Shown piece by piece: positions 5,031 through 6,657 of a stretch of 64,000 bases of DNA. Origin of the DNA: Polyangiaceae bacterium (GTDB lineage Bacteria > Myxococcota_A > Polyangia > Polyangiales > Polyangiaceae); the NCBI GenBank assembly GCA_015075635.1, contig JABTUA010000001.1:868001-932000 (forward strand), written 5' to 3'. Positions within the stretch are counted from its first letter, which is position 1; each line of letters begins with the position of its first letter. The translations under genes were made by a program, and so were the position numbers. The notes below the pieces were generated by a model. It saw nothing but the letters and a program-made list of their open reading frames with translations, was not told the origin of the DNA and did no database searches.

Positions 5031-5229
5031 GGGGGCTGTTCTAGCGCCGGGTGGGGAAGATGGGCACCGGCAAGGTCGTAGGAGGAGCCCGAGCGGGGTT
5101 TCCCCGCGTTCTCCCCGTGGTCCGGGGTTGTTGACGTCGTCCGTGCCCTCGGGCAAGCATGCGCCCGCCCGAGGCAGGGCACCTTGTAGTTTCCGGGCCG
5201 AAGACCGGCCTTCATCGGAGGATCAGTAG

Positions 5230-6021
5230 ATGCGGATCTCGAAGCTCAGTGTTGGAGCGGCGGTGGTAGTAGCGGCGGTCTCGTTCGCGGGAAGCGCTCT
5301 GGCTTAGGACGCGGAGGCGAGCGGTGAGGTCGGCATGACGCTCCCGGGCGCCGGTGGCGGACCCAAGGCACAAGGCACCGCGGGCGAATCGGACCACGAG
5401 GCCATGATTGGCCACTTCGCGGTCGGGTACATGGGACGGTTCCAGATCCCGCTCGCTGGCGGCGGCCCTCCCGGTCCGCCCCCAATCCAGTACGTCTCCG
5501 CTCCCGCCGTGGGCATGCGCTACTGGCTCGATCAGGGCATGGGCATCGACATCGGCCTGGGCCTGCTCTCCACCGGAGGCAGCGACTCGTACAACAACGG
5601 CAACCAGACCGTCACCAACGACGAGGCGGGCATCAACGCCGGGCTCCTCCACGCCGGCCTGCCCCTGGCGCTCGCGTCGAGCAAGCACTTCACGTTCCTG
5701 CTCGTGCCGGAGGCCAACGTGGGCTTCGCTCAGCGGACGCAGGAGGCCGGTGGGACCAAGCTCGAGCAGAGCGGCCTCGGCATCGATCTGGGCGCGCGCG
5801 CCGGTGCGGAGATCCACTTCGGCTTCATGGGCATCCCGCAGCTCTCGCTCCAGGGTGGCATCGGCGTGCTGTTCCGCATGGATTCCGTCAAGTACACCTA
5901 CACGCAGCCGAACTCCCCCGAGCAGACTGGCGAGACCAAGCACAACGAGTTCACCACCACGGTGAACGGGAATCCTTGGGACATTTTCCAAGGTAACATT
6001 GCCGCGCTATACTACTTCTGA
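5230..6021 (+). CDS. Secreted barrel-like protein interrupted by an in-frame TAG after the signal peptide
   Basis: GGAGG at 5217-5221 is well placed for the ATG at 5230. Codons 1-25 encode a textbook signal peptide: MRISK, a hydrophobic core, then an AGSALA cleavage site. Codon 26 (5305-5307) is TAG. The frame then continues open for 237 codons to the TGA at 6019-6021, with a mature sequence beginning DAEASGEV. Gln (CAG) at codon 26 would give the common ALA-QD junction, so one C-to-T change explains the stop. The mature part, rich in Gly and short strand-like stretches (MRYWLDQGMGIDIGLGL, FGFMGIPQLSLQGGIG) and ending in YYF, looks like a small outer-membrane beta-barrel. Without readthrough, only reinitiation at the ATG at 5335 could make it, and that form lacks a signal. 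Confidence 0.75.
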
Positions 6022-6054
6022 TTCTTGGGACGCCCTCGGGCGGAAAGGCACGCC

Positions 6055-6657
6055 ATGGCTAGCCGGCAACTGTCTGTGATCTTTTCCTCGGCGCTGATCG
6101 CGATCGCTTGCGGCGGTAGCGGTCAGACCACCGGTTCGAGCAGCGGAGCGACCTCGAACGGAGTGCCCGGCAACCCTGGCGCGCCTCCCGGCTCGAACCC
6201 CGGCGCGCTTCCGGGTGGTCCGGGCGGTGGCGGCAAGGGCGGCGGCGGCGGTCAGGGTGGCGGCGGCGGTTCGGGCGGCGGCGGCGGCGACTGCTTGAGC
6301 GTCTGCCAGGCGCTCGCATCGGAGTGTCAGCAAGATCCGTCCATCTGCGCCCTCGCCTGCGCCGATCCGCCCCCCGGCGCCGTCGAGTGCATGCAGGACG
6401 CGACCTGCGAGACCGCTCAGTCGTGCTTCGGCGGCTCCGGCGGCTCCGGCGGCGGCTCCGGTGGAGCGCCGCTTGGCGGCGCTGGCGGGCTCGGCGGTGA
6501 CGGCGGCTCGCCGCCCATCGGCGGCGCCGGCGGCCTCGGCGGTGGTGGCGGGGACTGCACCTACCCGAACTGCGGCGGCTGTACGGACACGTGTCTCGCG
6601 TGTCTGTGCGCGACGCAGAACGACGAGGTTGCCTGCTCGTCGTACTGCGGGGTCTGA
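6055..6657 (+). CDS. Glycine-rich, cysteine-rich lipoprotein
   Basis: A 200-residue predicted lipoprotein. The start at 6055 follows a GGAAAGG ribosome binding site, and the signal ends in a lipobox (ALIAIACGG). The mature chain has a Gly/Pro/Ser-rich stalk of about 70 residues, a first cysteine module (DCLSVCQALASEC through to ETAQSCF), a second Gly-rich spacer, and a terminal cysteine module (DCTYPNCGGCTDTCLACLC through to ACSSYCGV). The domain order resembles the lipoproteins at 27918-28391 and 53795-54763. It lies 33 bases after the barrel-like gene, so the two may be co-transcribed. Function is unknown. Tethering a disulfide-bonded head to the cell surface or periplasm is my inference. 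Confidence 0.8.
   Translation: MASRQLSVIFSSALIAIACGGSGQTTGSSSGATSNGVPGNPGAPPGSNPGALPGGPGGGGKGGGGGQGGGGGSGGGGGDCLSVCQALASECQQDPSICALACADPPPGAVECMQDATCETAQSCFGGSGGSGGGSGGAPLGGAGGLGGDGGSPPIGGAGGLGGGGGDCTYPNCGGCTDTCLACLCATQNDEVACSSYCGV

Follow-up and report, generated by a model that had tools for sequence, protein, structure and literature searches.

A gene for a secreted protein of a Polyangiaceae bacterium has an in-frame amber codon where its mature product begins, and this gene is probably a very recent nonsense allele of a dispensable, single-copy gene for an outer-membrane beta-barrel. In such an allele, one nonsense substitution would have hit the Gln codon that opens the mature part of a conserved secreted barrel; ribosomes would initiate as usual, translate the 25 residues of the signal peptide and halt at the TAG with RF1. 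The product of rare misreading at the TAG would be scarce, and that from the downstream ATG at 5335 would have no signal peptide and so would not reach the membrane; the allele would thus be effectively null, and too young for the rest of the gene to look unselected. It is our inference that the organism truly carries this substitution and that its allele is null. The window, that is, the whole stretch of DNA that was analysed, spans 64,000 nucleotides, and the relevant features are the following:

5217..5221, + strand: Shine-Dalgarno sequence GGAGG, ending 8 nt ahead of the ATG at 5230
5230..5304, + strand: start codon and 25-codon signal peptide, with SALA at its end, conserved with the congeners
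5305..5307, + strand: in-frame TAG in place of the codon for the first mature residue, which is Gln in relatives
5308..6021, + strand: remaining part of the predicted outer-membrane beta-barrel gene, 237 open codons and a TGA, supported by homologues, near-invariant positions and a structural model
5335..5337, + strand: internal ATG, corresponding in the congeners to an interior Met in VGMTLPG, with GAGG at 5326-5329

The interrupted gene and its relatives

The ribosome binding site, the ATG at 5230, the signal peptide and the TAG lying exactly at its junction, all described in the first-pass annotation, were found in the sequence, as was the frame open for 237 codons past the TAG, up to the TGA at 6019-6021. 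The signal peptide encoded from the ATG at 5230 is MRISKLSVGAAVVVAAVSFAGSALA, with the TAG as the next codon. Sequence comparison gave the same letters in both congeners for the stretch at the Shine-Dalgarno sequence, GGAGGATCAGTAGATG, and an identity of about 85% over the DNA of leader and signal peptide. A simple base-composition model puts the chance of such a 237-codon open run at about 0.005, but the real evidence for a gene is homology. An antisense ORF at 5212-5991 was rejected as a shadow, the homologues belonging to the sense frame.

The read-through protein, searched against 59 genomes (its own and those of relatives), matched in 42 of them, its own included, and in 33 of the 46 genomes of good quality; the named relatives matched are Polyangiaceae and Myxococcales metagenome genomes. 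None of the matches outside the own genome contained a stop. In the two congeners (G001 and G002) the match covers query positions 1-263, spanning the stop, with an E-value of about 1e-86 in each, and identity to G002 in the barrel frame is 88% before the stop and 50% over the 60 columns after it. The order UbiA-CPBP-TlyA-BtuF-barrel-ComEC-HPRT is kept in relatives, with RarA next in most; among these names the BtuF-like one was checked against Pfam (Peripla_BP_2), and the others are our reading of the sequences. With no match in 13 of the 46 good-quality genomes, the gene looks dispensable, and a search of the own genome (9.47 Mb in 5 contigs) revealed no clear paralogue of it, which suggests a dispensable gene present in a single copy.

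The mature barrel is about 54% identical to those of the congeners, no nearer than to some from other genera (52-56%), and far below the 71-88% identity of most neighbouring genes to the congeners. Such low values would be expected if the surface evolves fast or if the mature part has been exchanged.

The description of the product as a secreted barrel held in kind and was weaker at the level of the family. Against the Pfam model PF13505 (OMP_b-brl) the protein scored 16 bits, below the curated cut-off of 28.7, which two homologues approach (27.6 and 27.8 bits); no Pfam or NCBIfam model reached its cut-off for the barrel family in the proteins scanned, and neither NCBIfam nor a PDB sequence search returned any match to the window protein. 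An AlphaFold model (seven input sequences; pLDDT 75, pTM 0.70) shows a nearly all-beta fold with about nine long strands, which follow a first stretch of 27 residues modelled at low confidence. The PDB structures that match it best come mostly from outer-membrane barrels such as OmpA, Ail and FadL, but no match reaches E <= 0.001. The protein shares with OMP_b-brl proteins the signal peptide, the alternating beta strands and a terminal aromatic (YYF), and it differs from the members of that family in its sub-threshold score; we read it as a weak predicted relative of OMP_b-brl, right in kind for an outer-membrane beta-barrel.

The codon at the junction and the state of the gene

When signal peptides were parsed automatically in 34 homologous loci, Gln came directly after an AxA-type site in 27 (15 CAG and 12 CAA). 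Three of the parsed loci, from a contig search that matched six relatives and no further strain, are apparently the same contigs as others, having equal lengths, and among the 32 distinct loci, one of them unparsed, Gln follows AxA in 25 (14 CAG, 11 CAA) and was recognized by eye in two more, where the parser had slipped. Both congeners read GGALAQEGEA at the junction, with CAA as the Gln codon. The TAG therefore replaces the usual first mature residue of the family. The proposal of a C-to-T change from CAG agrees with the Gln codons (CAG or CAA) that relatives have at exactly this position, and one step from CAG to TAG would be the simplest path; a CAG precursor is what we infer by parsimony and no more, because the nearest relatives have CAA. 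Since about 16 codons of the gene, counting that at the junction, are one transition away from a stop, a chance hit on the junction codon would have a frequency of about 1 in 16, and its position is mutationally not very special.

Past the stop, the first-pass annotation had seen no decay, and the comparison with relatives bears this out. The protein keeps 50 of the 51 positions that are near-invariant among 14 relatives, as do the intact relatives, and its own branch is not longer than that of the congeners (0.45 vs. 0.46 to the congener pair with IQ-TREE; 0.49 vs. 0.49 for the congener pair with FastTree), so that no acceleration is apparent in it. GC3 in the barrel gene is 0.88, similar to its neighbours. 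The lesion must therefore be very recent, harmless to function, or not real. Together, the Gln of relatives and the undecayed gene strongly support what had been suspected from the sequence, a very recent nonsense mutation or an error at a Gln codon.

Accuracy of the assembly

The second of these two options is the main rival of a nonsense allele, and we consider it rather unlikely. In that case the organism would have an intact gene, and the TAG would stem from a single wrong base, a sequencing or a consensus error in the assembly. A single base difference is enough for this, the deposited record is a single assembly of one strain of the species, and the total lack of decay in the rest of the gene, which a nonsense allele explains by its youth, is equally compatible with an error. 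However, the assembly looks accurate, being made of 5 contigs, and the matches listed among its 151 kinase and 79 ABC domains, about 230 conserved domains, include none with an internal stop. Furthermore, about 84 kb (808-892 kb of contig C1) were compared with the contigs of the congeners. Stops were present in 7 of the 53 aligned syntenic frames, and six of these frames were judged by eye, on composition and position, to be off-frame shadows or upstream extensions. The barrel is thus the only genuine interrupted gene found in this region, which argues against a generally poor assembly; a rare wrong base could still occur somewhere in 9.5 Mb. By itself, the locus has little significance, and it is a clean example of one of two things, a nonsense allele still free of decay or a rare error of assembly.

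A codon-usage scan for interrupted genes over 344 kb gave no candidates with strict settings, which missed the barrel too, and 39 with loose ones. These scans, whose training signal averaged 0.18 bit per codon, were discarded because the training ORFs seem to be contaminated by antisense shadow ORFs of this GC-rich genome.

Possible decoding of the amber codon

The codon would be neither an error nor a null lesion if it were usefully decoded. Signal peptidase tolerates most residues at position +1, and a TAG placed there could lower expression rather than abolish it, whichever amino acid was inserted; the sequence constraint that apparently continues past the stop counts in favour of such functional readthrough. 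Nevertheless, we regard it as very improbable. ARAGORN, applied to the loci where the own genome gave its 58 tRNA matches, found no CUA anticodon, and no PylS was found above the cut-off, the one sub-threshold match being of a kind found in 13 of 14 control genomes. RF1 is present, and the listed kinase and ABC domain matches, being free of internal stops, give no sign that TAG has been reassigned; among 87 long training ORFs, some of which are probably shadow ORFs, 19 end in TAG. According to the homologues and the domain survey, the in-frame TAG is neither conserved among orthologues nor recurrent in the genome. Regulated readthrough, one of the options raised at first reading, is therefore left unsupported, with no suppressor tRNA found and no homologue, congener or other, that has the stop.

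Two observations concern the tRNA complement itself. A low-scoring tRNA-like match at C2:201543-201613, above the Rfam cut-off and not called by ARAGORN, has no CTA anticodon when read by eye and is possibly a degenerate tRNA. Seventeen tRNA genes, many with low tRNA scores, are clustered within about 8 kb (C2:2493925-2502044) in an arrangement that resembles the tRNA arrays of mobile elements, and none of them has a CUA anticodon.

A more elaborate form of useful decoding, to which we give even less credit, would make of the amber codon a reversible expression dial: since the first mature residue is free to vary, any tRNA misreading the codon would restore the normal exported protein, and the TAG would mark a low-expression, surface-silent and revertible state of the population.

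Least credible of all is reinitiation at the ATG at 5335, or a true start there, giving a functional protein without a signal peptide: the GAGG lies 5 nt before this ATG and the TAG 9 codons upstream of it, so that some initiation is conceivable, but the congeners, in which the Met is interior, share a strongly conserved ribosome binding site and signal peptide with this gene, an upstream signal peptide is encoded by nearly all homologues whose 5' end is intact, and a beta-barrel lacking it would not be exported. The homologues thus lend no support to this start, which had also been proposed; none was found that begins at 5335 without a signal, and the anomaly stands. Automatic annotation would probably place the start of the barrel gene at 5335 and so lose its signal peptide.

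A nonsense allele, the reading that we prefer, has parallels elsewhere. A large survey of in-frame stops in bacterial genes, which includes a TAG/CAG case in Paenibacillus, argues that such stops often occur in genes still under purifying selection, proposes readthrough, and concludes that most of them last no longer than polymorphisms do (Belinky et al., 2021; PMC7918605); this short persistence also weighs against functional readthrough here. Like those alleles, the window gene has a TAG at a Gln position, constraint elsewhere, a sense codon in relatives and an apparently short life; unlike them, its stop was seen in a single genome, and it falls on the residue with which a mature secreted protein begins. 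As a single-genome event it fits that pattern, and would be an ordinary broken allele. With amber recoding by pyrrolysine or a suppressor tRNA it has in common the in-frame TAG and the conserved continuation, whereas PylS, a CUA tRNA and conservation of the TAG in homologues, as detailed above, were not found. The locus could nonetheless serve as a test case for the extent of readthrough at natural amber codons in bacteria.

Just downstream of the barrel, positions 6052-6657 of the window hold a Gly-rich, Cys-containing, secreted or lipoprotein-like gene, poorly conserved (37% identity to a congener), which might share a transcript with the barrel and hence be open to polarity.
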